A stretch of 45,960 nucleotides of DNA from the IMG/VR virus record IMGVR_UViG_3300028862_000042, positions 1-45,960 of that record; one strand, written 5' to 3'. The first letter of the stretch is position 1. Each line of letters opens with the position of its first letter. The notes below the pieces were generated by a model. The model made no database searches. It had not been told where the DNA came from and saw nothing but the letters and a program-made list of their open reading frames with translations. This document shows, piece after piece, positions 2,339 to 16,874 of the stretch. This DNA comes from a virus. The position numbers were made by a program, and so were the translations under genes.

Positions 2339-2773
2339 CTAGCGATCTCTTGGTTTGAGCTCTCTTGCTAATTTAAGCGCTCTAGAATACTCTGAATTAG
2401 TCGGAAACATTTTAGATAACATTTCAGTAGCGTTTATTATTCTTAAAATATTTTTAGAATCTTGTATTCCTCTTCCTACCATAGTGTAAGTCATACCGGA
2501 TATAATTTCTTTAGCATCAAGATTAAATGAATCGATCTCTTTTAATTCATCTGCTGTAGGTAATCTGTATTTAGTCTCTGAAAAGAAATCTGGTTTTGTA
2601 TTTTCTTTCAAAACTTTGTTAGGGGTGGAAGTGCTCGGTTCTCCTAAACTAGGAAAACAATCTCCTGATCCTTCTGTATTTGAAGTCGGTGGGGTAACAT
2701 CTCCCATTCCAGGCATACTACCGACTTCTGCAAAATCTTCATTAAGCCATTCGTTAAATAATTTTATTCTCAT
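2339..2773 (-). CDS. Putative internal or processed head protein with capsid-targeting-like N-terminus, 144 aa
   Basis: The N-terminus MRIKLFNEWLNED has the same layout as the T4 capsid-targeting sequence (basic start, F-x-x-[FW], then an acidic cleavage site). L-N-E at residues 10-12 fits the [LI]-x-E consensus for T4 gp21 cleavage. A Gly/Pro/Ser/Thr-rich linker follows (about 17-55). The C-terminal 80 residues are helical (DELKEIDSFNLDAKEIISG...). It is the last gene of the unit AAA+ ATPase, 688-aa, 200-aa, 144-aa, 12 nt after its neighbour. The function of the mature part is unknown. Packaging into the head is inferred from the leader and the position. Confidence 0.6.
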   Translation of the reverse strand: MRIKLFNEWLNEDFAEVGSMPGMGDVTPPTSNTEGSGDCFPSLGEPSTSTPNKVLKENTKPDFFSETKYRLPTADELKEIDSFNLDAKEIISGMTYTMVGRGIQDSKNILRIINATEMLSKMFPTNSEYSRALKLARELKPRDR

Positions 2774-2785
2774 GAGTAGTCTTTT

Positions 2786-3388
2786 TTAAATTGCTGGTGC
2801 ACCGGCTGAAACTGTTGGTGCCGCAGTAGCAGGAGTACTAGTACTTACTTCTCTAGATATCTCATCAGCACTGATAGCATTTTGAATTACAGTTTCAGTT
2901 ACAATAGGTCTACCGTCTTTAGATATGTTCTTATACATTCTCATAGTCAGTGGTTTCCCTTTTATAAATCCGATAGCATCTAATATAGCCATTACTCCTA
3001 CTGTGTTCAATGCTTGATTATCTGTCAATCCGATAGATTTTAAAAATGTAGGGCTATCTGTTCCAGTGATCTGATATAAACCTGAACCGTCTGGCATATC
3101 TGCCAGTTTAGTAAATGACATTATCATTTTTATAGCTTCATTATCAGGTGATTGCAACTTAGCCATAATAGTAGTACCTAATGCTACGCTTTTAGATGGA
3201 ACGTTTTCGGCTTTCGTACCCAATCTTGTTGCAGCAGAATCTATCTGCTTATTTAAAATTACTGGGTCTTTGAATAAATTCATTAACTTAGCCCACATAT
3301 TTTTCAACATGTCAAATATTCCTTCATTTACTACATCTTCATTATAGCTTTCTACTATAAATTCAGAGTACGGTATTAAATTTTTCAT
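2786..3388 (-). CDS. Putative internal head protein with cleavable leader, 200 aa
   Basis: It begins MKNLIPYSEFIVES, a capsid-targeting-like leader with I-V-E at 11-13. V-N-E-G at 20-23 is a second possible cut, followed by an amphipathic helix (GIFDMLKNMWAKLMNLF). The V/L-N-E-G-I arrangement also occurs in the neighbouring 688-aa protein. The middle is helical. The last 20 residues are an Ala/Thr/Pro/Ser tail (STSTPATAAPTVSAGAPAI), probably disordered. Its start is directly adjacent to the stop of the 688-aa gene. There is no enzymatic motif. A packaged structural or ejected protein is the best guess. The family is not recognised. Confidence 0.6.
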   Translation of the reverse strand: MKNLIPYSEFIVESYNEDVVNEGIFDMLKNMWAKLMNLFKDPVILNKQIDSAATRLGTKAENVPSKSVALGTTIMAKLQSPDNEAIKMIMSFTKLADMPDGSGLYQITGTDSPTFLKSIGLTDNQALNTVGVMAILDAIGFIKGKPLTMRMYKNISKDGRPIVTETVIQNAISADEISREVSTSTPATAAPTVSAGAPAI

Positions 3389-5455
3389 TTATATTAGTGT
3401 TTTTTGATATTCTTTTCTTAGCATTTCATTATACCACAGATCAAAATTATTTCCGGCTTCAGAATATGCTAATTTTTTATACTTTAGCAATCTAAGGAAA
3501 AATAGAGATAACATAGAATCATTGAACGATAAAATATTTTCTGCATTTTCTTTTGAACGTTTTGCTATAGTGATAGCATCTTCGATAAGATAATCTGCTG
3601 CATTTTTTAATTTTGCTGGATCGATTTTACTAGCAAGTGGATTTGCAGTATCTTGAGTAGTAATATATGATTGAGCATTTTTTAAGAAAGTTTCGTTAAT
3701 ACCCTTTTTATGAGGATCAATTCCACCTTGACGATAAGATAATGTATTAGCTCTTCGTACTGCTTGATTAAATACAATCTTTCCATTTTCGTTCTTAGAT
3801 GCAGTACCTACAGTCAATATCATATCTCTTGTCATCTTTGAAGCTATTTCTGATTTATCAATCAAGAATTCTCCTACTTTATCAAATATAGCAGTATCAT
3901 CAGGTTTTGACTCAGGTTCTTCTGTATTTTCCGTATTAGATGATCCCTTTTCATATCCTGTTAATGCCAATTCTGCAATAGCATCAAGATAATAATTAGC
4001 AAAGTCTTCGGGCATAGTTTTTTCCATGTCAAGTACAACATCAGTGAACCCAATAGATTTTAAAATATCTCTTTTTGAAGCACCTTCGTCTAGTAGTCCC
4101 TGTATTTTGTCTCTTGTTTTCTCGAAATATGCAACATATTCTTCAGGTGTCTTAAAAGAAGTACGTACAATACCTGTATATTTTTCGATAAACTTTTCTT
4201 TATCTTCGAGACTGTATTTATTGTACATATCGAACGTAACTTTTCTTTTATCAGAAACGTAAGGTTCTTTTTTGTCAGGTTCCTCTTCTGTATTATCAGT
4301 TGGTTCTTCTCTTGAATCATCTTCGGAATCATCTTCAGATTCTGAAGATGACGTTTTAGTAGAAGAATTTTCTAAATAATCTTCAGCTGTTGTTATAGAA
4401 GAATCTGAACCATCAGCTATCATATCCTCAACATCAGATGCAATATCTATAAGATGTGATTCATCTACAGAAACTTTCAAATTAGATATTAAAGATAAAA
4501 CTTTATCTCTACCTTCTTGAGTACGTTTAAGTAAGTACAGTTCTATGAATCCCCAATATCTATCATTAACAGTGATAAGTTCCGTTATGTCGTCGAATAT
4601 CTTATCTTTCTGATCTTCTAAATCTTTAGCTGTAATAGTATTCAATTTAAGCCATCTAGAACCTTCGAAACAACGAATACTGTTCGTAATCATTACTCCT
4701 TTATCGTGTCTATTCTGTGTTCTATTTTCGAAATATTTTTTTTCACAATTATCGAACGATTTAGTAAGTTTTTTAATGTCATAAGACATAAAATTTTCTA
4801 CTTTTCGTAATTGAAAAAACTTAGTGATAGCTACTGCCATTTTATCAGCTTGATCAGAAGTCATCCATTTTTCTGATTCTGCTATGTAATTTGACAATTC
4901 ATCTACATTTTCTTTGAATGTGATAACATCATCAGAACTCATATCAGTATACATAGCATCTACTTTGCTATGTTGAGCAGCATATTTTTTAGTCATTGAT
5001 GTTGCGTATGCAGATTTCATACCAAGTAGTCTAGTAGCATAATCTTTCTTAGCTTTTAGTCTGCTGTCGAGAATTAACTCATTTGCCAATTTCTGATAGA
5101 CCTCTCCTTTTTCACCAAGAGATTTCATCTTAGATTCTATATCGTTAGATACTTTTTCTCTTCTATAGAATTCATCTAAAGCAGTATCTTTTTTTGCACC
5201 TTTATATGTTGAAGTGTATTCATTAATAAGCCATGCATAATATTCATTAGACAAGTCTTTTAATTTAGAAGCAGTAGGTGAAAAATGTCTTTTTACCCAA
5301 TTACTTATCGAACTTAGAATACCCTCATTTAAGTTTTCATCTAGTTCATATCTAGTCTGCATATACTCATATACTCGTGCCTGTTCAGGTACTTTAATAT
5401 TAGAAAGAGCTAATGAACGTACTTTTTTAAACTCGTTAAATTTCATAGTGAACAT
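3389..5455 (-). CDS. Large putative internal head protein with cleavable leader, 688 aa
   Basis: This large, mostly helical, charged protein has a basic N-terminus containing MKFNEFKK. L-N-E-G at residues 42-45 is followed by an amphipathic helix (GILSSISNWVKRHFS), as in the 200-aa neighbour. An acidic Ser/Glu/Asp-rich linker sits in the middle (SSESEDDSEDDSREE), and a second Glu-rich linker (TENTEEPESKPDD) lies nearer the C-terminus. So there are about three helical domains joined by disordered segments. No TM segment or catalytic motif is evident. It overlaps the AAA+ gene by 13 nt and abuts the 200-aa gene, so the three proteins are likely made together. By analogy with T4 internal proteins or Alt it may be packaged and ejected. 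That is inference. Confidence 0.65.
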   Translation of the reverse strand: MFTMKFNEFKKVRSLALSNIKVPEQARVYEYMQTRYELDENLNEGILSSISNWVKRHFSPTASKLKDLSNEYYAWLINEYTSTYKGAKKDTALDEFYRREKVSNDIESKMKSLGEKGEVYQKLANELILDSRLKAKKDYATRLLGMKSAYATSMTKKYAAQHSKVDAMYTDMSSDDVITFKENVDELSNYIAESEKWMTSDQADKMAVAITKFFQLRKVENFMSYDIKKLTKSFDNCEKKYFENRTQNRHDKGVMITNSIRCFEGSRWLKLNTITAKDLEDQKDKIFDDITELITVNDRYWGFIELYLLKRTQEGRDKVLSLISNLKVSVDESHLIDIASDVEDMIADGSDSSITTAEDYLENSSTKTSSSESEDDSEDDSREEPTDNTEEEPDKKEPYVSDKRKVTFDMYNKYSLEDKEKFIEKYTGIVRTSFKTPEEYVAYFEKTRDKIQGLLDEGASKRDILKSIGFTDVVLDMEKTMPEDFANYYLDAIAELALTGYEKGSSNTENTEEPESKPDDTAIFDKVGEFLIDKSEIASKMTRDMILTVGTASKNENGKIVFNQAVRRANTLSYRQGGIDPHKKGINETFLKNAQSYITTQDTANPLASKIDPAKLKNAADYLIEDAITIAKRSKENAENILSFNDSMLSLFFLRLLKYKKLAYSEAGNNFDLWYNEMLRKEYQKTLI

Positions 5456-6621
5456 TGTTGTTTTATCATTCTTAGTGCAATATCGTCAGATTTAACTTTA
5501 CTTACAATTGCAATAGTCTTAAGTAAAGTACGTAAATTCAATTCTACATCTGTTGTTTCTTCTGCAGCTTGTGTAAGTAGAAGCATAGATTTATCCTTTA
5601 TAGCACCAGATACTTCTAGTCCTTTAGGAGTTTCTATTTCGGGTAATAAATCCCACATACGTGAAATCATGTCTTCTTTAGTTAATGCAATTTCTAACAT
5701 GAATGCTCTACTTCGTATAGCAGCATCGATTTTCTTTCTTGGTACATTACTAATGAAGATTATCTTACCATTAAAATCAAACTTCTTTGGAATTTGATTC
5801 TTTTTATCAGTTTTTAAAGCAGCTCCTGCAGCATTCCAAGAAATTTCTCTTAGTACTGATGTATCTAATGCTCCTTTTAGTACATTTACTGCGGTAGGAT
5901 CTTTAAATACACTATCACAGTCATCATATATTAGCATCTTACCATTATTCTCATACAGTGAAATATATAGTCCAGCAGCAGTTGTTTTACCAGTTATCTT
6001 GAAATAATCTTCATTACGTTTAAGACCATTAGCTTCCAATCTTTTCATGACTAAGAAAGATTTACCAACACCAGCTTGTCCAGTTAGTAATAAAGAATTC
6101 ATTGCACCTTCAATTACCATGTCAATGTAAGTAGTCATGTCGTCGAATACTACATCTGGATCGCCATAATCATAATCTAAATCTTTTTGAGCATTATCAA
6201 TGGATTTATCTGCGGCTTCTTTTGCCTCTTTAGAAGATACAATTTTTATTTCGTCAGAAGATTCTTGCAATGAAATTTTAGTTGGGTTCTTGTATATGTA
6301 CATTATTTTTGGTAATGCTTTATCTACTGGAACACTGTTTAGATATAGAGTCAATACGGGTTTTAAACCTTTGCCGTTCCAGATATCTATGCTATACAGA
6401 TTTGTATCTACGAAATTTAATCTCATTGATCTTAGATCATCAGTAGTTATAAGATATCCAATCTGAGTAGGCTCACCATTTCTCGTAAATTTATCGAATT
6501 CAGGGAAGAAATAAGTTTCTTTTCCTGTCTCCTTTTCTATATAATCACGAAAAATAGAAGATACTTGTGTAGGATTGTTATCTGTTATACTTTCTAAAGT
6601 ACTCCAACTTGAAAAATTCAT
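5443..6621 (-). CDS. AAA+ family ATPase
   Basis: A 392-aa protein with an N-terminal domain of unknown type (1-160) and an AAA+ core. Walker A is GQAGVGKS (181-188), Walker B is MLIYDDCD (229-236), a sensor-1-like Asn sits in IIFISN (287-292), and an arginine-finger candidate is IRSR (302-305). A Lys-rich loop precedes sensor 1. It should hydrolyse ATP and act on a protein or nucleic-acid partner, but the partner is not shown. It is the first gene after the promoter-like element at 6645-6653. It overlaps the next gene, which encodes a putative internal head protein, by 13 nt. The operon suggests a remodelling or chaperone-like role in head maturation or in handling the internal proteins. A DNA-metabolism role cannot be excluded. 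Confidence 0.85.
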   Translation of the reverse strand: MNFSSWSTLESITDNNPTQVSSIFRDYIEKETGKETYFFPEFDKFTRNGEPTQIGYLITTDDLRSMRLNFVDTNLYSIDIWNGKGLKPVLTLYLNSVPVDKALPKIMYIYKNPTKISLQESSDEIKIVSSKEAKEAADKSIDNAQKDLDYDYGDPDVVFDDMTTYIDMVIEGAMNSLLLTGQAGVGKSFLVMKRLEANGLKRNEDYFKITGKTTAAGLYISLYENNGKMLIYDDCDSVFKDPTAVNVLKGALDTSVLREISWNAAGAALKTDKKNQIPKKFDFNGKIIFISNVPRKKIDAAIRSRAFMLEIALTKEDMISRMWDLLPEIETPKGLEVSGAIKDKSMLLLTQAAEETTDVELNLRTLLKTIAIVSKVKSDDIALRMIKQQCSL

Positions 6622-6644
6622 AGTATTATGTTATATTGTGTGTT

Positions 6645-6653
6645 CTATATATC
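6645..6653 (-). promoter_or_regulatory. Promoter-like element GATATATAG
   Basis: On the minus strand GATATATAG lies 23 nt before the ATG of the AAA+ ATPase gene. It is one of at least ten copies of [AG]ATATATA[GA] that precede transcription units in this window. It probably acts as a phage promoter element. Confidence 0.55.
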
Positions 6654-6672
6654 TCATGTACATCAAATATGA

Positions 6673-7761
6673 CTATTGTAATAATTCATTAGCTAATTGA
6701 ATAGTCATAGCTATTGACCATGCTAATGGAGTATTATCGTTAGGAGTCAAAGTTCCATTATAGTATAGTTCAGGTACTTCATAATCAGAGATATTTGACA
6801 TTATAGTTTCGTACAGGCTTTTTGCTCTAGACTTATCTCCTAATTTACAGTAAATAATACCCAAGAAACAAAGTCCAAATACCCATTCAGCCTCTTTTCC
6901 GTTACTGTAATATTTATCTTTCTTATATCTGTATACACCATTTTCGCCCAGTAGGTATTTTTCAATATTAGATACAACTTTCATTTTCATTTTATCATCT
7001 AATATGTCACATGGATAGATTAGAAACAATTGAGCTAGATCATAACTTCTGCTAGGTGTTTCTCTTGGAAGAATAGAGTTTAATGCTAATATCGATGCAT
7101 CTATCAATTGTTGATCGACTTCAACTATTCCACTTTTCTTGATAGCATTCAATCCTGCTATAACTACACCAATTGTGGATGCTCTAGGAGTTTCTCTGCC
7201 TTCTTCCCATGCTCCAGATTCAGCTATATTGTAGAACTGTATAGCGCTTAACATTTCTATGCATAACGATATGATTTTCTTATCATTATCATCTCTTATC
7301 ATTTTAATTCCAGCTTCTGCTCCTTTTGCTATTCCCAGTAAAAAATATCCTATTTGATCAATTTGTACATGGTTCCATCCACTGTGAATTTCCGATAAGT
7401 CAAAATGTATACGTGGATTTGGAAATTCCCATTCATTATCAATAGTCTTCTTATCGATTAGTGAACTGAATTTCTTGTATCTATCTTCTATCTGTATATA
7501 GTAATCTAACCAAGTATGATAAGTTTGTCTGTATAACGCTTTATTGTTATCTAATTCTGGTAGTGAACAAAAGAAATTATCGCGTAACCAAGTGTATGCA
7601 TAATCATCAGATGAAGAAGCACTGTAGAACCCATTTTTTAATCGCAATGAATGCAAAACTTCGAATAAGTTATCTATGTCTATTTGCAATAAGCTTCTGT
7701 ATACCCTATCGTAATCATCACAATTTTTAAAGTTTCTTTTGTAGTTAACAGTATATCGCAT
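6673..7761 (-). CDS. GH15-like (glucoamylase/phosphorylase-kinase-alpha type) glycosidase
   Basis: This 362-aa protein has the hallmarks of the (alpha/alpha)6-barrel GH15 superfamily. They are YAYTWLRDNFF (54-64), the WEEGRETPRAS segment (185-195) with the likely catalytic acid Glu186/187, and the C-terminal VPELYYNG (329-336) followed by DNTPLAWSIA (342-351), where Glu331 matches the position of the catalytic base. GH15 members hydrolyse alpha-glucosidic bonds (glucoamylase, dextranase, trehalase); some relatives only bind. There is no signal peptide and no TM segment. It is shorter than many bacterial glucoamylases, which carry an extra N-terminal beta domain, so only the catalytic barrel is present. 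It sits alone between the capsid gene and the AAA+ operon, with its own promoter-like element and an upstream terminator. Substrate and virion location are unknown. Confidence 0.75.
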   Translation of the reverse strand: MRYTVNYKRNFKNCDDYDRVYRSLLQIDIDNLFEVLHSLRLKNGFYSASSSDDYAYTWLRDNFFCSLPELDNNKALYRQTYHTWLDYYIQIEDRYKKFSSLIDKKTIDNEWEFPNPRIHFDLSEIHSGWNHVQIDQIGYFLLGIAKGAEAGIKMIRDDNDKKIISLCIEMLSAIQFYNIAESGAWEEGRETPRASTIGVVIAGLNAIKKSGIVEVDQQLIDASILALNSILPRETPSRSYDLAQLFLIYPCDILDDKMKMKVVSNIEKYLLGENGVYRYKKDKYYSNGKEAEWVFGLCFLGIIYCKLGDKSRAKSLYETIMSNISDYEVPELYYNGTLTPNDNTPLAWSIAMTIQLANELLQ

Positions 7762-7776
7762 TTTATTATCTTTTTT

Positions 7777-7785
7777 CTATATATT
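7777..7785 (-). promoter_or_regulatory. Promoter-like element AATATATAG
   Basis: Minus-strand AATATATAG lies 15 nt before the ATG of the GH15-like gene and just downstream of the terminator that follows the capsid gene. It thus starts a separate transcript. Confidence 0.55.
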
Positions 7786-7804
7786 CATTTGAGGCTAAAC
7801 CAAG

Positions 7805-7834
7805 AAAAGGGAAACAATTTCTTGTTTCCCTTTT
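7805..7834 (-). terminator. Rho-independent terminator after the major capsid gene
   Basis: A perfect 13-bp stem (AAAAGGGAAACAA with TTGTTTCCCTTTT) closes a 4-nt loop, and the minus-strand RNA ends in a short U run. It lies 22 nt after the stop of the capsid gene. Confidence 0.8.
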
Positions 7835-7856
7835 TAAGTAACTATTATTCTATAGC

Positions 7857-9506
7857 TTAGATAATGCTAGTAGAACCCATTCTAAAGTGAATAGTATAGT
7901 ATTGAGTCTGTGGTAATTGACCTGCTTCAACAAGAGCGAATCTTGATTTAACAGCAATTTTAGGACTCATTGAACCTTCAGCAATAGTTTGGATAGATTC
8001 AGCCATCATATAAGGCATAAATTTCAAACCTGGTTCTTCATCTGCACCTTTTCTTCCAACCAATACTCTGTTATCAGAGAATTTCATGTTAGGATCAACG
8101 TATAGAGTCATTCCAGCGATAGTACCAACTGGGTATAGTGAACCGTTGTTTTGGTTAATAGCATTAGTTAATGGTGCAGCAGTAAACTGTGCGTTATCCA
8201 TGATAGCAGATGCTAATTGAAGGTTAGTAACTACGAAGTTAGCAGGACCTCTACGACCTCTTTGTGCTACAACATTACCAGCGGCAAGTATTTTAGACAA
8301 AATACGTCTTTGAATTGTGTACATGTTTTCGTTAGCGATACCACCAGTAGATGCGAAAGCTGAGAAAGCAGGAACTGCAATTGTAGAAGTAACACCATCT
8401 GGTCCAACATAAGCTACAGTAGTAGCAGTAGTTAAAGCAGGATCAAGAGTAGTATTTAAAGTAACACCTTCAGATGCAACCATTCCAGCGTTGTTTGACC
8501 AACCTAAAGCGAATGCTCTTGCTAAAATGTTTTTGTTAATAGCTTGAGAAAGTTCATTTACCAATGCATTTTCTACCATAGAGATAACATCGATACCGTA
8601 CTGTTTGTTCAAATCTTGGATTTGTTCAGTAGTAACAGCTGCTGCTACTTGGAAAGTTTTAGCTTCAACGAATTTAGTATAAGCTCTAAGACCCATAGTG
8701 TTGAAGTAAGTGCTTTCACCTGTACCTCTTTGCATTCCACCAGTTAAATCTTCACCGTTAGTGAAAGGACCGAAGAAATCGTCTTGGTTATGATCGCCAG
8801 CACCAGAGAAACCTTGAATGTGATCTTCAAGAGCTTTAACTAGAGAAGGAGTAATTGTTCCTGTAGAAACAATTGAACCAGCTACAGTACCTGCGTAAAG
8901 TGAACCAGCTGATGCAGTAGCAATAGTTGGAGCATTTCCAGCGTCAGGGTTTAGAACTCTGAATAATGGTTGACCATCAATTCTTGAATATCCTACGAAT
9001 TTCAAAGCAAGATTAGCTGCTGAAGTTCCAAGTGCATAATCAGCACCACTAGCAACACCTGCAGTGAAAGGATTAGCAGTAGAAAGTTTGATAACTGTTG
9101 GTTTGATGTTAGTATCAAGACCACCACCAGCGTATACATAATCAAGATAAGTAAGAACTCCGGTTGGACCACCCATAGGGATAACGTTTACGATATCAAA
9201 ACCGATTGTTCTTGCAGCAACTTGAATTGCCAATGGAAGAAGTGATGGAAATTTATCGCCTGATCCTTCTGCACCATATACTCCGATACCAGAACCTGGA
9301 GTCGATACATTACCCATAAGACCGGCAATATTACCGCCTGGAGCAACTCCAATTTGTGAGTATGAACCATTGAAACTTTCGTTCAATGAGTGAAAGTGGC
9401 AATATTTAGACAACCAATTAAGTTTATAAGTGTCTGTCACTCCTGCTTTAGACTCGATAATAGGAGCCCAAGTTTCGAAGATTTGAGATTCATTAATGTG
9501 TAACAT
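7857..9506 (-). CDS. Major capsid protein, T4 gp23-like
   Basis: A 549-aa protein of about the length of T4 gp23 (521 aa). The segment VTTEQIQDLNKQYGIDVISM, followed by a helix NELSQAINKNIL, matches the gp23 region with the pattern EMAQDLRxxHGxDAxxEL...EINREI. The C-terminal LKFMPYMMAE with IAVKSRFALV matches the gp23 end (PYVAL... and FKTRYGI). An N-terminal pro-region is likely. L-N-E at 41-43 before SFNGSY fits the gp21-type cleavage rule, which would give a mature protein starting at Ser44. The gene follows the protease-scaffold gene after 37 nt and ends at a strong terminator, so it probably shares the transcript from 11509-11517. The middle part, rich in Thr/Ala/Gly, has no equivalent that I can name. 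Confidence 0.9.
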   Translation of the reverse strand: MLHINESQIFETWAPIIESKAGVTDTYKLNWLSKYCHFHSLNESFNGSYSQIGVAPGGNIAGLMGNVSTPGSGIGVYGAEGSGDKFPSLLPLAIQVAARTIGFDIVNVIPMGGPTGVLTYLDYVYAGGGLDTNIKPTVIKLSTANPFTAGVASGADYALGTSAANLALKFVGYSRIDGQPLFRVLNPDAGNAPTIATASAGSLYAGTVAGSIVSTGTITPSLVKALEDHIQGFSGAGDHNQDDFFGPFTNGEDLTGGMQRGTGESTYFNTMGLRAYTKFVEAKTFQVAAAVTTEQIQDLNKQYGIDVISMVENALVNELSQAINKNILARAFALGWSNNAGMVASEGVTLNTTLDPALTTATTVAYVGPDGVTSTIAVPAFSAFASTGGIANENMYTIQRRILSKILAAGNVVAQRGRRGPANFVVTNLQLASAIMDNAQFTAAPLTNAINQNNGSLYPVGTIAGMTLYVDPNMKFSDNRVLVGRKGADEEPGLKFMPYMMAESIQTIAEGSMSPKIAVKSRFALVEAGQLPQTQYYTIHFRMGSTSII

Positions 9507-9543
9507 TTGTGAATGTATTTTTTGTTGTTTTTTTGCTGTTTTA

Positions 9544-11472
9544 TTAGCGAGTGTATTTGCCTAAAAGAGTTTTCATGTGTTGTAAATATTCTTCAGAATA
9601 TCCTAATGAAGGAGCTTTAAATCCTTCTACTTTTTCGCTTTCATTTAGGTTCTGTGAATTAGATGAAGTTGTCAAATTAGCAGATCTAGTTTCCCAGAAG
9701 TTTTTAATTTGATAATCTGTATCTAATTTGTAAGTTCTAGATTGTGCAACTAAAGTACGTTTTTGGTTTTCATCAAGTGATTCCCAAACTGTTTTGTATT
9801 TTAGCGGTGCTTCTTCTATCCATTTTTCTGAACGAGGATGTAATGCAGATTCCCACAACTGTAGAATTTCTTCTTCGGTTGTCAACGTTTTACCATTCAG
9901 CGCGGATGCTACTTTCTGTTTTTTAGCGTCATCTAAATTTCTGAATTCTTCACGTTTTGTTTCATTTAGCAAACTTACGAAACTATACATGATAGATTCG
10001 TCTGGAAGTCTTACATTTCCATGTTTCATTGATTCATTAAGGTCACCTATCTTCTGTTTTTTGACAGATTCCAAAATAGCATCAACTTTACCTGAGAGAG
10101 AAGAATAATCCATATCTGCTTCTGAAACTGTGGTTAAGTTAGTATTTGTATTTGTTGTATATATCTTTTCTGACTCAGTAATTGCGAATTCTGTGTAGTC
10201 TGCAACTGCTTGAGCTTGTTCACCAATATATTCAGTATATTTTATACCTTTTTCAAGGTTTTCAGCTAAATAATCTTGGTGTTCTATTGCGTTACTTAAT
10301 TGTTCAGCTAAATACTCAGCATAATCAATTCCTTTGCTTGAATTTTCAGCAATATGTTCAGTGTAAGCAATACCTTGATCTAATTTCTTGGCAAGATAGT
10401 TTGAATATTTAATACCTGATTTAAGTTTTTCAGATATCATCTTGTTTTTCTTATCAATACTTTCACTTATTTGTTCAGCATATTTGATAACATTACCGGT
10501 TAGATCGCTATTCTGTCTAGTTTCTAAAATATTAGCATTTATACTTTCAGATAGCTTAAGATTTTCATTTTCCATGACTGTTGATACATATTCAGTATAT
10601 GAAATATTCTTGTCAAGCAAAGTGGAAACACTTTCTAATTGAGCAGCTAAATATTCACTGTATTGAATATTATGATCAGAAACTCCGCTCATGTATTCCA
10701 AATACTTTTCTATTTTACTTACCGCTTTATTAAGAGTGCTAATCTGTTCGTTAACAGGATTCTCAACTTTTAGTGTATCAATATTCTCGTTTAGTTTTTC
10801 AATTTCTTTTTTTACTATTAGAGAATAATCATGTAATTCTTTTGGTGTTACGAAGTCCATGTTTTCGTTAGTTTTTTGTGTATTGTCGATTTCTTCTCCT
10901 AGAAGATAATTATTTAAGTCTTCACCAACTTCATACACAGAAATTAAATCACTATGGATTCCCAAACTTTCATTAATTCTGTTAAGAACAGCATTTTCGA
11001 AGCCTGGATCAGCTACAAGATCATATGTAAAAATCTTTTTAATTCTTACCTTCTTGTTACTTTCTACTAATCCTGCCGCTCTAGAAGAGATGCTGATTGG
11101 AACACCACCTTTAACTAATTCTTTTGCGATTCTTCCAGAAGGAGTATCAAGTAATCTTAGTCTACCTTTTATCTGTCGTGATTCCTTGATGTAATCAAGT
11201 TTTTCGATAACATGAGAAACTTTGGAGAGAGATATATCGAATTTTTCAGGATGATCAAGTTCTCCTAATAATCTTTTACCTTCTATTTTCTTGTTTAAAT
11301 ACTCCATGTGAGGAAGATATTCGCTTTCTTCATAAATTCTATCATTATTATTAACGATACCGAATTGAGCAAAAATACCTTCGAGGATCACATCGTCACC
11401 ATCTGAACTTACGCTCAGATTATGAGAAGATTTCTCAAGTATCATCACAAATTTTTTCGTTGTGTCTTCCAT
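9544..11472 (-). CDS. Prohead protease fused to scaffold/core domain (T4 gp21 plus gp22-like)
   Basis: Residues 1-170 match the T4 gp21 prohead-protease fold. GIFAQFGIVNNNDRIYEESE (32-51) is followed by GELDHP (70-75) with catalytic-type His74 and by ISISSRAAG (126-134) with the candidate nucleophile Ser. I-N-E-S at 166-169 fits the enzyme's own [LI]-x-E cleavage rule and would release the protease. The remaining 470 residues are a long helical, charged domain. About 260-435 contain repeated units of about 20 residues (YSEYLAAQL, ISYTEYVS, IKYSNYLAKKL, IAYTEHIAE, IDYAEYLAEQL, IKYTEYIGEQ). In T4 the protease and the scaffold gp22 are separate genes, while here one ORF appears to carry both. 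A promoter-like element lies 36 nt upstream and the capsid gene follows. Confidence 0.85.
   Translation of the reverse strand: MEDTTKKFVMILEKSSHNLSVSSDGDDVILEGIFAQFGIVNNNDRIYEESEYLPHMEYLNKKIEGKRLLGELDHPEKFDISLSKVSHVIEKLDYIKESRQIKGRLRLLDTPSGRIAKELVKGGVPISISSRAAGLVESNKKVRIKKIFTYDLVADPGFENAVLNRINESLGIHSDLISVYEVGEDLNNYLLGEEIDNTQKTNENMDFVTPKELHDYSLIVKKEIEKLNENIDTLKVENPVNEQISTLNKAVSKIEKYLEYMSGVSDHNIQYSEYLAAQLESVSTLLDKNISYTEYVSTVMENENLKLSESINANILETRQNSDLTGNVIKYAEQISESIDKKNKMISEKLKSGIKYSNYLAKKLDQGIAYTEHIAENSSKGIDYAEYLAEQLSNAIEHQDYLAENLEKGIKYTEYIGEQAQAVADYTEFAITESEKIYTTNTNTNLTTVSEADMDYSSLSGKVDAILESVKKQKIGDLNESMKHGNVRLPDESIMYSFVSLLNETKREEFRNLDDAKKQKVASALNGKTLTTEEEILQLWESALHPRSEKWIEEAPLKYKTVWESLDENQKRTLVAQSRTYKLDTDYQIKNFWETRSANLTTSSNSQNLNESEKVEGFKAPSLGYSEEYLQHMKTLLGKYTR
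10180..10690 (-). repeat. Degenerate approx. 20-residue coding repeats in the scaffold domain
   Basis: Within the protease-scaffold gene, at least six copies of a G-I-x-Y-[ST]-E-Y-[ILV]-A-E-x-L unit follow each other at a spacing of about 18-22 residues. The DNA copies have diverged (for example aatatattcagtatatttta and taaatactcagcataatcaa), so the repetition is kept at protein level. Confidence 0.75.
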
Positions 11473-11508
11473 TTCTTGTTTAAAGTTTTAAAGATTGTGA
11501 GTCTTTTT

Positions 11509-11517
11509 CTATATATT
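11509..11517 (-). promoter_or_regulatory. Promoter-like element AATATATAG
   Basis: Minus-strand AATATATAG lies 36 nt before the ATG of the protease-scaffold gene. It is a member of the window-wide [AG]ATATATA[GA] set and probably drives the scaffold and capsid genes. Confidence 0.55.
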
Positions 11518-11553
11518 ACTTATTCCAAAGTTTTTTCGTTAAAAATTAAATAA

Positions 11554-11856
11554 TTATACTGTTTTATCAGTATTATCAGTTTTATTTTCATCGGTAGTTT
11601 TTTTCTCTCTTTGAATCTGGGTAATCATATATCCAGCGACTGCAAACTCTATACCTGACCAAATTGCTAAATCTGAAGATGTCATAGTATTGAGATTATG
11701 TATGAAAAAGGCTATCATTCCACTTTGTGCGACAGCAAAAGATACACCCGATTCGATTCTTTTCTTAGAAAAGAATGAACTTTCACCAGAATAAATCTTG
11801 ATGAATTCTTTTATGCAATATCTTATGTTTTGCCAACCGAAAAAATACTTTTTCAT
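11554..11856 (-). CDS. Small membrane protein with two TM segments, 100 aa
   Basis: The protein has a cytoplasmic-looking basic and aromatic N-terminus (MKKYFFGWQNIRYCIKEF), then two hydrophobic segments at about 38-57 (SFAVAQSGMIAFFIHNLN) and 63-82 (LAIWSGIEFAVAGYMITQIQ). A hydrophilic charged tail (REKKTTDENKTDNTDK) follows. Size and topology would suit a class II holin, but no endolysin is seen nearby. Its place between the acidic core protein and the protease suits a head-linked protein instead. The gene starts 15 nt after the stop of the acidic protein. Function unknown. Confidence 0.65.
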   Translation of the reverse strand: MKKYFFGWQNIRYCIKEFIKIYSGESSFFSKKRIESGVSFAVAQSGMIAFFIHNLNTMTSSDLAIWSGIEFAVAGYMITQIQREKKTTDENKTDNTDKTV

Positions 11857-11871
11857 GATACTATGTAAATT

Positions 11872-12231
11872 TTATTCAGCAGCTTCTGGAGCTTCTTCTT
11901 CCTCTTCTTCTGGTGCTTCTTCTGGAGCTTCTTCTGGAGCTTCTTCTTCCTCTTCTTCTTCATCTTCTATTTCAGAAGCTTTAATAGATTTGATAGAATC
12001 TGAACCATCACCATCCCATTCAAAAGTTCTTTTTCCTAAATCTTCTTCAGTTTCAGGGTCAACAACAATTTTAAAAGTATGACCTGCAGCGCCTACAGAT
12101 TTGATACAATCCAATAGTTTTTTCAATGTTTTCGATGCATCTGTAGCTTCGACTTCATATTTTACTCCGTTAGATTTTTCTTTTTCTTCTCCACTTTCTT
12201 GTTCAAGGAGAAACTGTTTAAATGTCTTCAT
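11872..12231 (-). CDS. Acidic prohead core protein with T4-like capsid-targeting leader, 119 aa
   Basis: The first ten residues, MKTFKQFLLE, match the T4 capsid-targeting sequence (MKTYQEFIAE, removed by gp21) at five of ten positions. Four of the other five are conservative or similar, and it ends in the L-x-E cleavage signature. A small mixed domain follows (about 22-85). The C-terminal 35 residues are almost all Glu, Ala and Pro (repeated EEAPEEAPEE). T4 gp67, a highly acidic core protein, is also encoded just before the protease and scaffold, so this is a positional and chemical analogue. Whether the folded part is homologous is not known. A promoter-like element lies 18 nt upstream of the ATG. 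Confidence 0.7.
   Translation of the reverse strand: MKTFKQFLLEQESGEEKEKSNGVKYEVEATDASKTLKKLLDCIKSVGAAGHTFKIVVDPETEEDLGKRTFEWDGDGSDSIKSIKASEIEDEEEEEEEAPEEAPEEAPEEEEEEAPEAAE
11878..11970 (-). repeat. Low-complexity Glu/Ala/Pro coding repeats
   Basis: The plus strand shows tandem ggagcttcttct units between runs of cttcttcc. On the coding strand they encode the EEAP repeats at the end of the acidic core protein. The repeat is slippage-prone, and its copy number may vary between related phages. Confidence 0.8.
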
Positions 12232-12282: not shown

Positions 12283-12681
12283 TCAAAGAGACTTTAAAAA
12301 TTCATCATAACGTAAAATACGATGCTCAGCTATTACGCCAGGAGTAGATACATTATCATTTTCTATGTGAGGAAATTTAGTACTTTGTAAAAGACGTGAA
12401 TAATCTACTCTGATCTTCTTACCGTTTTTAGTAGTCAATTCTATGAATAGAATACCATCACCAGCTTTATTTTTTACTATCTTAGAAACTGTGCCAGTTA
12501 CTACTTTGTTATCGATATTGACATCAATTGTAGAATTAAGAGATAGACCCATCATCTTATCAGTACCTCTGGGTTGCTGAATAGAAGTATCATACGCTAC
12601 TATACGTATTTTGAAAGCTGGATTATTATATCCCATAGAAACATGACCACCTGTACCAGTTTCTAATCCATTATATGCCAT
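12283..12681 (-). CDS. Unknown beta-rich protein, 132 aa
   Basis: A Gly/Asn-rich N-terminus (MAYNGLETGTGGHVSMGYNN) leads into a beta-rich segment (VDVNIDNKVVTGTVSKIVKN-type pattern, about 50-90). The C-terminal end is HRILRYDEFLKSL. The central part looks like a small SH3-like barrel, by strand pattern only. It forms a single-gene unit between a terminator with promoter-like element upstream and the next promoter-like element downstream. It sits in the head block, so a small head protein is likely. I do not recognise the family. Confidence 0.6.
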   Translation of the reverse strand: MAYNGLETGTGGHVSMGYNNPAFKIRIVAYDTSIQQPRGTDKMMGLSLNSTIDVNIDNKVVTGTVSKIVKNKAGDGILFIELTTKNGKKIRVDYSRLLQSTKFPHIENDNVSTPGVIAEHRILRYDEFLKSL

Positions 12682-12787: not shown

Positions 12788-13981
12788 CTATTTGCGTTTT
12801 TTCTTTGGCGGTATTCTAAAACCTTTTCGTTGAACACTAGTAGGAACCGGCATTTTGAAATACTTTTCATTATCAAGAATAGTCTTGACTTGATCGTTAT
12901 CTAATGTATTCGGTAGTTGTACTCTCATTTGCCAGTAAGTTTTAGAAGCTTCCTCTCCTCTATTTGTATAAAAACAAGATAGTGAATGTAGCTCTAATGC
13001 TTGATATCTGTAAAATGAATCATCTATAAAAAGAATTCTATTTGGGTATGGATTCTTCATATTATACTTTAATCCGTATGAAGAATAGATATATGCTAGT
13101 TCCCAGTTTTTTATGCGTTGTAAATACAAGACTAATCCTTTGATCGCTTCACCTCTTAATGGATCGCATAACTGAGCATCATTGTAGTATGCAAGTATTT
13201 CATTTCCCGGCAAATCTAAAATATCTGCCAACTTGGCTATCATAAGTTTAGACATGAATATTTCTTCTTCGAATCCGCTTAAAATTAAAGCACGTTTTTT
13301 GTACCATTCTATAGATTCAGTGAAATTTCCAGCATCTCTATAAGACTGAGCAGTATAAAATATCCAACGCGGATCACTGTTCTCTTTTGTATACTCAGCA
13401 AGTATCTTAGCATGACCAGCATACTTTTCGGGTATATTATTCCATGAACTACCTTCAGCTTTAACTAATATATGAGCAAATGGAACAAGGCCACCCGGTT
13501 TTTCATTTTCTCTTTCTAAAACCTCGTGTATAGGACCGTTCCATTTATACCCAATATCACATTTCCAAATACTTTTTCTAGTGTATTCAATGTTACCATA
13601 TTTGATATTTAGAGATATTGAATCATCATTTTCTCCCAATGATAAACTGGACTTCATATTAAATCCTTTATCTTCAAGGATCAATTCCTCATCGGCATCT
13701 ATCCAAAATCCCCACTTACACTTTTTCTCTACTGCTTCTAGTGCTACATTTCTAGAAGTAGCAAAATCTTTCCATTCTATTTCTATAAGTTCACCAGTTA
13801 TGCCCTTGTCGATAAAAAAGTCTTTAATAATATCTTGTGTACCGTCAGTAGAACCAGTGTCAACTATTACCCAATAATCAATATGTTTGTATACTGAGTT
13901 CAGGACTCGTTCAATAACATGATGTTCATTTTTGACAATCATACTAAGCCCTATTAAATATTCTTTGCCCATTCTAATCAT
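12788..13981 (-). CDS. Family 2 glycosyltransferase with C-terminal helical repeats
   Basis: A 397-aa protein with a typical GT2 (GT-A) core. LSMIVKNE (12-19) is followed by VDTGSTDGT (40-48), with the nucleotide-binding Asp, and WIDADEE (about 92-98), with the DxD metal motif. The rest (about 190-370) is helical with TPR-like pairs (WIFYTAQSYRDAGNFTESIEWYKK). The enzyme should transfer a sugar from a nucleotide-sugar donor; donor and acceptor are unknown. GT2-TPR fusions are frequent among protein-glycan enzymes, where the TPR part can contact a peptide. The gene diverges from the plus-strand glycosyltransferase island across 84 nt and ends at its own terminator. Start ATG at 13981 follows a T/A-rich leader; a second ATG lies three codons later. 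Confidence 0.9.
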   Translation of the reverse strand: MIRMGKEYLIGLSMIVKNEHHVIERVLNSVYKHIDYWVIVDTGSTDGTQDIIKDFFIDKGITGELIEIEWKDFATSRNVALEAVEKKCKWGFWIDADEELILEDKGFNMKSSLSLGENDDSISLNIKYGNIEYTRKSIWKCDIGYKWNGPIHEVLERENEKPGGLVPFAHILVKAEGSSWNNIPEKYAGHAKILAEYTKENSDPRWIFYTAQSYRDAGNFTESIEWYKKRALILSGFEEEIFMSKLMIAKLADILDLPGNEILAYYNDAQLCDPLRGEAIKGLVLYLQRIKNWELAYIYSSYGLKYNMKNPYPNRILFIDDSFYRYQALELHSLSCFYTNRGEEASKTYWQMRVQLPNTLDNDQVKTILDNEKYFKMPVPTSVQRKGFRIPPKKKRK

Positions 13982-14065: not shown

Positions 14066-15736
14066 ATGTATACATTTGAAAGCACTGTCAACAATGCAGA
14101 AATTCCCCACAAGAATCCAATTAAGTTACCACGTGTATTATTCATAACTCCTCATTTATCTACAGGTGGATGCCCTCAATATCTACTGAAGAAAATTCAA
14201 CAATATAAGACAGAAATGGACATATTTGTCGTCGAATTTACATTCCTGAGTGATGTCTATACTGTACAAAGAGATGCTATACTTTCAATAATACCACCTG
14301 ATCACTTCTATTCTCTAGGCAGTACTAAATCAGCATTACTCTATATCATAGATGAGATAAATCCAGACATAATTCATTTCGAAGAGTTATCAGAATCAAT
14401 GGCAGAATTCTCTCTCTTAAGAAAAATATACTTAAAGGAAGATAGAAGATATTTCATCACGGAGAACACACATTCATCACATAGCAATCCAGATTCAAAG
14501 ATATTCCTACCGGATAAATTTATATTTGCTTGTGAGTATTCGAAAAATGTATATAGTAAACTAAATGTACCTTCTACAGTATGGGAATATCCAATTGAAT
14601 ATAAAAAACGTCCAAATAGAGAAGAAGCACTTACTAAACTTGGATTAGACCCATCTAAAAAACATGTATTAAATATCGGTTTATTTACACCCGGAAAAAA
14701 TCAGGCTGCTATATTCGACATAGCAAATTCTTTTAGTGATACACAATTTCATTTCGTGGGAAATCAGGCCGGCAATTTTGAACATTACTGGAAGCCTTTA
14801 ATGGAACATAAACCTGATAACTGTATCATATGGGGTGAAAGAAGTGATACTGATGCATTTCTTTTAGCATGTGACGTATTTTATTTTCCATCTTTATTGG
14901 AACTTAATCCTTTAGTCATAAAAGAAGCTCTAGGTGCACAGATTCCAATTATGATGAGAAATTTAGATGTCTATCTAAATAAGTACGATAATGAGAAAAT
15001 GATTCATTTCATAGAAGGGAATGATGAACAATTATTATCGAAACTCTTAGCAATAAAAGAAAAACGTACAAAAATAGTACATATATTATCAGATATCTCA
15101 TCTGAAATAGAACAGAAATCTATCGCATCGGTTTCTACTTTAGCAGATAAAAATATAGAGTATACCATACACTTAAATCCTGTTACTACATCATTCAATT
15201 TGGAAAAAGAACCGATGTGGATAACTGATTCATTAAATCCTGGTCATTATGGGTGCTTTGAAGCATTCAGAAAAGCTATTGTAGAAGATTTTACAAATGA
15301 TTATGACTATTTAATCGTATGTGAAAGAGACTGTATATTAGAAAAAGATTCAACAGAATTGAAAACTCTACTGTCAAAAACTTACGATGCAATGAGTAAA
15401 CATGACGTTCATTTTTTCTCATTTGGGGATAAAGTAGATTTATCAGAATGCTATTTACAGTCTAATGTAATAGAAAATATTGAAGACTTTGCATATGTCA
15501 CAGACAAGATAATTGGATTGCAATTTGTCATATTCGATAAACAAGGAGTAGATTTTTTAAAAGAAGCATTTATACATGAAAAATGGCAAGCTATGGATTT
15601 ATGGTTCGGTGTAATCTTTGAAAAATACGGTAAAAAACAAGGTATTCTGAATGAACGTGTAACGACTCAGATGAACGGATACTCATTAATCGATAAATCA
15701 GAAAAAATATTTAAAGCGAATGATAGAAATGTTTAA
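14066..15736 (+). CDS. Two-domain glycosyltransferase (GT-B plus GT-A-like)
   Basis: The N-terminal 340 residues have a GT4-type GT-B pattern. PRVLFITPHLSTGGCPQYLL (24-43) is the acceptor-side Rossmann start, KHVLNIGLFTPGKNQ is the donor-side strand with the usual Lys, and DVFYFPSLLELNPLVIKEAL carries the E-x7-E signature of retaining enzymes. The last 180 residues form a second domain with NDYDYLIVCERDCIL (about 411-425), a DxD-like metal site, and later FEKYGKK. This resembles a GT-A domain of the GT25 or related kind. The protein thus probably transfers two sugars or makes a disaccharide. It is the first gene of the plus-strand island and overlaps the next gene by 17 nt. The start ATG follows an A/T-rich leader without Shine-Dalgarno. 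Confidence 0.8.
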   Translation: MYTFESTVNNAEIPHKNPIKLPRVLFITPHLSTGGCPQYLLKKIQQYKTEMDIFVVEFTFLSDVYTVQRDAILSIIPPDHFYSLGSTKSALLYIIDEINPDIIHFEELSESMAEFSLLRKIYLKEDRRYFITENTHSSHSNPDSKIFLPDKFIFACEYSKNVYSKLNVPSTVWEYPIEYKKRPNREEALTKLGLDPSKKHVLNIGLFTPGKNQAAIFDIANSFSDTQFHFVGNQAGNFEHYWKPLMEHKPDNCIIWGERSDTDAFLLACDVFYFPSLLELNPLVIKEALGAQIPIMMRNLDVYLNKYDNEKMIHFIEGNDEQLLSKLLAIKEKRTKIVHILSDISSEIEQKSIASVSTLADKNIEYTIHLNPVTTSFNLEKEPMWITDSLNPGHYGCFEAFRKAIVEDFTNDYDYLIVCERDCILEKDSTELKTLLSKTYDAMSKHDVHFFSFGDKVDLSECYLQSNVIENIEDFAYVTDKIIGLQFVIFDKQGVDFLKEAFIHEKWQAMDLWFGVIFEKYGKKQGILNERVTTQMNGYSLIDKSEKIFKANDRNV

Positions 15737-16874
15737 TGATCTAGTAAAGAACACAAACAATTTCATTGAAAAAATGCCAGAGATCATTATCTCATATGAT
15801 AATGGAGCAAGAGTAGATATAATAGGCGTATCAGATAAAATCTATACTGTAGAATTTTACGAAAATGAAGAATTGATTGAAGAATTGATATACAGCGCTG
15901 ATATAGGAGTGGGTTGTTATGCCTCACCATATAAGAAATATTTTGTCAATTGGAGAATAAAAGTGCTAGATGGTGACAGAATAATCGTAGACGATATATT
16001 ATCTATTGAAGGAAAAAAAGTTTTTGTTGCAATAGACAGTAGATCGTTAGGTGATACATTAGCATGGATGCCACAAATCATAAAATTTGGAGAGGTTAAT
16101 CAATGCGATCTTATAGTAAGCACATTTCATAATAAGCTTTTCGATTATCAGAACGTTAAGTTCATTGAACCTGGAGAAGAAATAGGAGAACACTATGCAT
16201 CGTATACACTGGGGTATTTCATGGATGAAAATAACAGAATGTATACTCCAATTGATCCACGAGGTAGATCATTAACCGAAGCTGCTGCAGATATACTGGG
16301 CATAAGTGATACTTATGAAGAACTATTACCCGTGATGAATCTAGATTCAGTGACTATGAGACCTCTTAAAGAAAAGTATGTATGCATAGCCACTATGTCA
16401 ACAGCAGGAGCTAAATTATGGCATAGAGAGAATGGATGGCAAGATATAATTGACTATCTTAACTTATTAGGATATAAAGTGGCTATTATTCAGAAAGAAA
16501 AACATAACTTTAATAACGTTATTGATTGGTCAGGAGATTTTAGTCTAGAAAAAAGAATTTCACAGTTATATGATGCTGAGTTTTTCATAGGATTAGGTTC
16601 AGGATTAAGTTGGTTAGCATGGGCATTAAGGAAAGATGTCATTTTAATTTCAGGGTTCAGTAATCCAATTGCTGAATTTCAAACTAAATGTCATCGTATC
16701 ATAAATAAAAATGTATGTAATAGTTGCTGGAATAATAAATCTTATCTGTTTGACAAGGGAGACTGGAATTGGTGTCCAGTACATAAAGATACTATACGAC
16801 AATTTGAATGTACACATCAAATAAGCACGATATCAGTAATAGAAAAAATAAATAAGATAATCAATGAAGCATAA
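15720..16874 (+). CDS. BAHT/TibC-type O-heptosyltransferase-like glycosyltransferase
   Basis: This 384-aa protein matches the bacterial autotransporter heptosyltransferase family along its whole length. An N-terminal beta domain (about 22-95) ends in YFVNWRIKV. DSRSLGDTLAWMP (106-118) carries the conserved GT9-type Asp. ENGWQDIIDYLNLLGYKV (237-254) and FIGLGSGLSWLAWAL (289-303) form the donor side. A Cys4 metal finger uses Cys333, Cys336, Cys352 and Cys364 (CNSCW, WNWCP, FECT). Known members (TibC, Aah) bind iron there and add heptose to serines of autotransporter repeats. All four cysteines are kept, so an active enzyme is likely. Donor and acceptor in the phage are unknown; Ser-rich fibre proteins nearby are candidates. 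It overlaps both neighbours in a co-translated island. Confidence 0.85.
   Translation: MIEMFNDLVKNTNNFIEKMPEIIISYDNGARVDIIGVSDKIYTVEFYENEELIEELIYSADIGVGCYASPYKKYFVNWRIKVLDGDRIIVDDILSIEGKKVFVAIDSRSLGDTLAWMPQIIKFGEVNQCDLIVSTFHNKLFDYQNVKFIEPGEEIGEHYASYTLGYFMDENNRMYTPIDPRGRSLTEAAADILGISDTYEELLPVMNLDSVTMRPLKEKYVCIATMSTAGAKLWHRENGWQDIIDYLNLLGYKVAIIQKEKHNFNNVIDWSGDFSLEKRISQLYDAEFFIGLGSGLSWLAWALRKDVILISGFSNPIAEFQTKCHRIINKNVCNSCWNNKSYLFDKGDWNWCPVHKDTIRQFECTHQISTISVIEKINKIINEA

Follow-up and report, generated by a model that had tools for sequence, protein, structure and literature searches.

The phage described here appears to possess a T4-type targeting leader, and its head proteins are very probably processed according to one shared cleavage code. 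The analysed stretch (the window) is one complete virus record of 45,960 bases, which contains the head, tail and baseplate genes of a T4-like phage. The head block runs along the minus strand in the order 132-aa protein, acidic 119-aa protein, 100-aa protein, protease-scaffold fusion, capsid protein, GH15-like protein, AAA ATPase, and then the 688-, 200- and 144-aa proteins. The best named relatives of its capsid protein belong to a 462-kb uncultured phage and to Prevotella Lak phages (44-47% identity). In total, 80 related loci were retrieved, some of them on contigs of up to 373 kb. Contig L002 is near-identical and overlaps the left 18 kb of the record, L003 is the nearest distinct relative (capsid protein 76% identical), and the large relatives G001 (373 kb, 501 ORFs) and G003 (271 kb, 344 ORFs) allowed genome-wide counts. 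The features are as follows, a slash marking a predicted cut:

2339..2773, minus: 144-aa protein, comprising leader, predicted cut, N-fist-like segment and C-terminal part
2738..2773, minus: its leader MRIKLFNEWLNE, residues 1-12, with the exact T4-type spacing F..WLNE
2645..2737, minus: its residues 13-43, a copy of the mature N-terminal segment of the capsid protein (capsid residues 44-89)
2786..3388, minus: 200-aa leader-bearing protein, counterpart at L003:16203-16763 (32-34% identity)
3323..3388, minus: its leader, residues 1-22, sites FIVE13/S and VNE22/G, by the T4-spacing pattern
3389..5455, minus: 688-aa leader-bearing protein (hhalign P 4e-6, HMM domain E 5e-6)
5324..5455, minus: its leader/propeptide, residues 1-44, predicted cut LNE44/G45, by family alignment
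5443..6621, minus: 392-aa AAA ATPase (phrog_1250; T4 nrdC.10-like domain)
6673-7761: GH15-like glycoside hydrolase between the capsid and AAA genes (PF00723 E 2e-10)
7857..9506, minus: major capsid protein, Gp23 family (PF07068 E 2e-35)
9378..9506, minus: capsid propeptide, residues 1-43, ending L-N-E/S (LNES in 19/19 relatives)
9249..9377, minus: capsid residues 44-86, at the position of the T4 N-fist (gp23 66-91), by gp23 alignment and the definition in PMC7136217
9544..11472, minus: prohead protease fused to scaffold, 642 aa (phrog_207 E 4e-39, PF03420 E 2e-11)
10969..11472, minus: S77 protease part, residues 1-168, with GELDHP and SSR aligning with T4 gp21
10966..10977, minus: junction site I-N-E/S, residues 166-169, its x-E-S position kept in relatives
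10162..10419, minus: 14-residue scaffold repeats, for example IAYTEHIAENSSKG and IDYAEYLAEQLSNA, sites at 374, 388, 402 and 416
11872..12231, minus: acidic 119-aa protein, leader MKTFKQFLLE/Q, by the T4-spacing pattern
12202..12231, minus: its leader, residues 1-10, by the T4-spacing pattern

Some neighbouring genes deserve mention in their own right. At the position of the GH15-like gene, L003 has a 568-aa ORF without a match to the GH15-like protein. ORFs that look glycosyltransferase-like by eye flank the head genes (460-1812, 12788-13981, 14066-15736 and 15720-16874) and perhaps serve in glycosylation of capsid or tail. Among the tail genes, 24168-25517 encodes a collagen-like protein of 449 aa with long GSS repeats.

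The leader was defined from published T4 genetics. In the IPIII leader, targeting depends mainly on residues 4 and 7, and processing on residues 8 and 10 (PMC9026906); these residues are Tyr, Phe, Ile and Glu, respectively. The derived T4-spacing pattern, ^M.{0,8}[FYW]..[FYW][LIVM].E, i.e. aromatic, two residues, aromatic, aliphatic, any residue, Glu, with an offset free up to eight residues, matches exactly three of the 42 ORFs of the record, those of the 144-, 200- and acidic 119-aa proteins. All three thus carry the T4-type CTS residues (aromatics 4 and 7, aliphatic 8 and Glu 10 in IPIII numbering, with an offset allowed). Shuffled N-termini of the record ORFs gave a mean of 0.07 matches and a maximum of 1 (200 shuffles). 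The spacing matters, since [LIV]xE[SGDQ] without its context turns up often (at 4.5 per 1000 aa across the record ORFs, and within the first 50 residues of 4/34 other ORFs) and is therefore little proof by itself. Bare LxE was likewise dropped as stand-alone evidence because of its frequency.

An earlier note on this DNA had compared these leaders with the T4 sequence MKTYQEFIAE, which is indeed the start of T4 ipII and ipIII, and every cleavage-site residue that it named is present at the position given. Its T4-like leader on the acidic protein (MKTFKQFLLE10/Q11) matches the T4 spacing. As for the related leaders that it saw on the 144-, 200- and 688-aa proteins, the first two fit the pattern exactly. 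The third falls outside, as it has FNEF but LNE far off; its leader (KFNEFKK...LNEG) is supported instead by the L003 counterpart and the family alignment. A motif search, suggested as a way of extending the list, returned under the strict pattern only the 144-, 200- and 119-aa proteins from the record, and many more ORFs from its relatives. Also outside the strict T4 spacing is the weak leader of the AAA ATPase (MNFSSWSTLE/S; MKFKDWKLMIRE/S in L003); single weak leaders of this kind could possibly be chance occurrences.

The cleavage sites themselves point to one code. A gp21-family protease is encoded in the same genome and gene block as the leaders, and the Gp23-type capsid protein has a predicted cleaved propeptide, recognised from its sequence and from a conserved site ahead of the fold (the match to PDB gp23* begins at residue 87). 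The cleavage-site motif is invariant, LNES being present in 19/19 non-redundant capsid proteins. The residues of the predicted capsid site, L41-N-E43/S44, are in place, and so are those of the predicted protease site, I166-N-E168/S169. Asn occupies P2 in 47% of leaders as against 5.9% in the background, and P1' is Ala or Ser in 63% (among the eight residues permitted there). As leaders and capsid protein have the same P2 Asn preference, a single enzyme preferring L-N-E is the simplest reading. P3 is L, I or V at family sites preceding conserved mature starts; Ser or Ala at P3, as in processing of the phiKZ/SPN3US type, is not found in the capsid proteins, whose sites read LNES throughout. The proposal of one processing code for the whole head thus gains support from LNES invariance, the shared P2 Asn, the gp21-type protease and the location of sites before mature starts. 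That of a T4-type targeting leader is likewise favoured by the specific pattern match, the clade-wide enrichment with its controls (see below) and the S77 protease with T4 motifs.

Family comparison bears on two predicted mature starts. The 688-aa protein is numbered from MFTM, and its Met4 aligns with the start of the L003 counterpart. Its N-terminal part is homologous to a tandem family located downstream of the capsid gene in most related loci. In at least 58/73 members of this post-capsid family, a conserved xIKNxLS start is abutted by [LIVMF]xE, after which Gly or Ala is the usual residue; inspection revealed a comparable site in most of the exceptions listed. The site directly before this conserved start lends support to Gly45, the expected mature start, which the family alignment thus favours. 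Comparison of the 688- and 200-aa proteins gave no support for homology between them. For the 200-aa protein, Ser14 and Gly23 had been offered as alternatives. The most conserved cut is NE22/G23: NE/G[IL]FD also occurs in the L003 counterpart, which makes Gly23 the preferable mature start. Ser14, not the site shared with L003, may be a first cut. The AlphaFold model of the 200-aa protein (pLDDT 43) was too poor for a fold search.

Homology searches gave no homologues of the acidic 119-aa protein. The nearby 132-aa protein (12283-12681) ends with ILRYDEFLKSL, resembling the leader aromatic pair at a C-terminus, and a 149-aa family described below has a similar C-terminus. A C-terminal signal Y-x-[DE]-F-[LIV] was nevertheless rejected as not significant (7 occurrences versus 1.9 in shuffles, with a shuffle maximum of 7).

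By analogy with T4, the following sequence of events can be proposed. The two leader aromatics would dock head proteins on the prohead core, and the leader would then be cut at [LIV]-x-E, typically L-N-E, by the gp21-like protease of the phage. The same protease would trim the capsid protein at LNE43/S44, release itself from the scaffold at INE168/S169, and be able to cleave the scaffold, which has many sites of this kind. Precursors of the acidic protein and of the 688-, 200- and 144-aa proteins would be incorporated into the prohead, and maturation would set the proteins free. Alternatively, the leaders might be docking signals for the scaffold that stay uncut, with cutting possibly confined to the capsid protein. 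Indeed, in T4 the aromatic pair provides most of the targeting, and Asp at position 10 blocks processing and not targeting (PMC9026906); moreover, a 77-aa ORF of the record has both aromatics but lacks xxE altogether (MRLKTFAEFVKTS). However, Glu is the commonest residue two positions past the aliphatic one (54% of anchored N-termini), the site is conserved directly before the mature start, and the leaders have the Asn preference of the capsid site. We therefore regard uncut leaders as improbable.

The leader extends well beyond this record. A looser pattern was found in 120/704 non-redundant proteins encoded near the capsid gene (58 loci), versus a mean of 15.5 and a maximum of 27 in shuffles, and within this set leaders of the same kind precede unrelated mature parts in many families. 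Genome-wide, a tight pattern matched 20/501 ORFs in G001 (about 1.3 expected) and 13/344 in G003 (about 1 expected), and the T4-spacing pattern 10/501 (shuffle 0.73) and 8/344 (shuffle 0.68), respectively. These matches are scattered across the genomes, beyond the head block. L003 retains leaders on the counterparts of the AAA, 688-aa and 200-aa proteins. Chryseobacterium phage MA9V-1, a cultured relative, has a similar code, with ...FINE/A in its capsid protein and a leader on the ORF that precedes the protease. In T4, the positive control, ipII, ipIII and one further ORF match the tight pattern; as for the negative controls, the T4-spacing pattern was found in 0/97 ORFs of crAss001 and 0/63 of a 50-kb stretch of phiKZ. 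No gp21-type protease was seen in the crAss001 annotation viewed. Virion proteomics for the clade was not found in the literature searched.

Three leader-bearing proteins of G001 (G001:C1:56927-58321, 83213-84040 and 84699-85520) have PG_binding_1, SLT and CHAP domains. They are possible packaged cell-wall enzymes, or could alternatively be tail or lysis proteins.

The dispersal of leader ORFs over 373-kb and 271-kb genomes, cell-wall enzymes included, might also suit a general localisation signal of amphipathic character that has no connection with the head and directs proteins, for example, to another phage compartment or a membrane. Such a signal seems very improbable, as the motif equals the T4 targeting sequence position by position, has the cleavage residue and co-occurs with a gp21-type protease, and crAss001 lacks the pattern and, in the annotation viewed, such a protease. 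Chance occurrence of a short motif, for which the frequency of [LIVM]xE (15.5 per 1000 aa in the other ORFs) could be adduced, is refuted for the leader pattern by the shuffles and negative-control phages and deserves almost no credence.

Beyond the processing code, we tentatively propose that imitation is used twice in head building: the leader would stand for a scaffold repeat, and the 144-aa and 149-aa proteins would clip to the shell by an N-fist supplied in trans. As for the first, the scaffold half consists in most relatives of 14-residue units in tandem, ISYSEYLAENLDKN being an example, and the scaffold of the record retains a degenerate run of repeats. Every unit contains an aromatic pair and xxE. 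The likeness of leaders and units also reaches outside the search pattern (z 5.6 at the residue preceding the second aromatic, 4.0 at P1', and 3.7, 2.9 and 2.3 at three further positions). P2 is a mismatch, with Ala in the scaffold units and Asn in the leaders. A strict position matrix of the scaffold repeats recovered few leaders, because the uniform Tyr-rich repeats penalise Phe, and was replaced by the column-by-column comparison. With units that have the aromatic pair and xxE and are leader-like beyond the pattern, the leader is possibly one such unit lent to cargo; it may mimic one scaffold repeat and would, less certainly than the steps above, dock by this imitation.

As for the second, residues following the predicted cut of the 144-aa protein (WLNE12/D13) resemble the capsid protein of the same phage. 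Compared over the part of the latter from its predicted cut to GSGDxFPSL, the two share 41% identity (blastp, E 5e-4), and an HMM of the capsid arm detects the segment with E 1e-5; in a shuffle test, 0/5000 shuffles attained the score of the match. The match covers what lies between cut and N-arm in the capsid protein, the region by which an N-fist-bearing protein is recognised: the copy starts exactly at the predicted cut of the 144-aa protein and ends approximately at the start of the capsid N-arm. In T4, the N-fist comprises gp23 residues 66-91 (PMC7136217) and holds on to four subunits, of which two belong to the neighbouring capsomer, and the N-terminal regions of gp23 shift outward on expansion (PMC9958956, PMC7136217). 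Capsid residue 87 aligns with gp23 residue 93, so that the copied segment ends close to the end of the T4 N-fist. A separate 149-aa family, present on 13 contigs, holds an N-fist copy of its own, detected by HMM in two genomes (E 9e-11 and E 2e-9); among eight aligned members, this part is rich in invariant residues (GMGNP, TNAGF, GSGD). Searches with the 149-aa profile gave no N-fist copy outside the capsid protein in LR756500, Lak-C1, PTm1, MaF61 and MA9V-1; the AlphaFold model of this family (pLDDT 54) was too poor for a fold search. Owing to its N-fist-like segment, the 144-aa protein is possibly attached to the shell and not a loose head content. From these alignments, we infer that both it and the 149-aa family would attach through this segment. 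Cleavage of the 144-aa protein would expose the copy, which could then clip into the capsid lattice, for example next to a missing capsomer at a vertex or the portal.

It is rather unlikely, though to be taken seriously, that recombination involving the capsid gene left the N-fist-like stretch in the 144-aa protein as a neutral remnant without function. The gene for this protein was found only in this phage and one near-identical contig, and further parts of the capsid protein turn up in proteins that are sporadic and change fast. None of seven records searched yielded a homologue of the 144-aa protein. In the corresponding slot of L003 there is a 119-aa protein with the leader FTFNEFLNE/N, which has no detectable similarity to the 144-aa protein apart from the leader. 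Against a remnant speak the boundaries of the copy, at the predicted cut and about at the capsid N-arm, and the independent retention of a copy with many invariant residues in the 149-aa family. We give little weight to another alternative, that the capsid pieces found in small proteins serve as decoys against host defences sensing the capsid protein. Several separate capsid segments do occur in sporadic small proteins, including the PM.xPxG stretch, which aligns with T4 gp23 near the host-sensed region; however, the 144-aa protein has a head leader, and the 149-aa family copies the N-fist and not the sensed region.

Other capsid-like sequences were encountered as well. Just left of the record, L002:17626-18393 encodes a protein of 255 aa, part of which resembles capsid residues 89-139 (PMG.PTG.LMYFD; HMM E 7e-6). 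It lies two genes from a protein that is GIY-YIG endonuclease-like by eye, and relatives of the 255-aa protein were found only in the same phage. A 116-aa protein of G001 (G001:C1:138685-139035, L089:18685-19035), identical in all four contigs that have it, contains capsid motifs in swapped order, KYVGKSRLDGFPIF and then PVKPMDSPSGTLFYIDHVY. Divergent short capsid paralogues lie far from the capsid gene in G001 (G001:C1:129661-130566, 301 aa, PF07068 E 4e-11) and G003 (G003:C1:178333-179229, 298 aa, PF07068 E 8e-9).

Much of this system is known from T4. Like IPI, IPII and IPIII, the proteins described here have an aromatic pair, an aliphatic residue, any residue and Glu within the first 10-20 residues, have a predicted L/I-x-E cut and carry unrelated cargo behind one leader, as do the exchangeable internal proteins of T4; a gp21-type protease and a Gp23-type capsid protein are likewise encoded in one block. 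Unlike in T4, the code is Asn-rich at P2 (L-N-E/A or S), leader-bearing proteins are far more numerous, being spread across genomes of 270-373 kb, some cargo has cell-wall-enzyme domains, and some propeptides are about 40 residues long with two sites. The scaffold resembles T4 gp22 as a core protein with many [LI]xE sites that is predicted to be chopped at maturation, but is fused to the protease and, in relatives, built of tandem 14-residue leader-like units; annotations of such a fusion already exist for Tenacibaculum phage PTm1 and for bS21 phages (PMC9723584). As in the N-fist/N-arm of gp23, the segment copied here lies directly after the predicted maturation cut and before the conserved fold; in contrast to T4, copies occur in trans, outside the capsid protein, in the 149-aa family as well as in the 144-aa protein. 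With phiKZ and SPN3US, the phage would have in common cleavage after Glu and a giant head with many packaged proteins, whereas those phages use S/A-x-E and mostly long propeptides instead of L/I/V-x-E and mostly short T4-like leaders. Thus, neither T4-type leaders and their exchangeable cargo nor the L/I-x-E code is new. What is new is the demonstration of the code and its clade-wide extent in huge phages, the P2 Asn preference, the resemblance of leader and scaffold repeat, and the N-fist copies; no description of a free N-fist protein type was found in the literature searched.

The leader provides a sequence rule that predicts head-borne, perhaps injected, proteins among the hundreds of uncharacterised ones in huge phages. 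This rule takes the place of virions, which would otherwise be needed and have never been grown. Finally, the likeness to scaffold units offers a testable reason why T4-type leaders dock.
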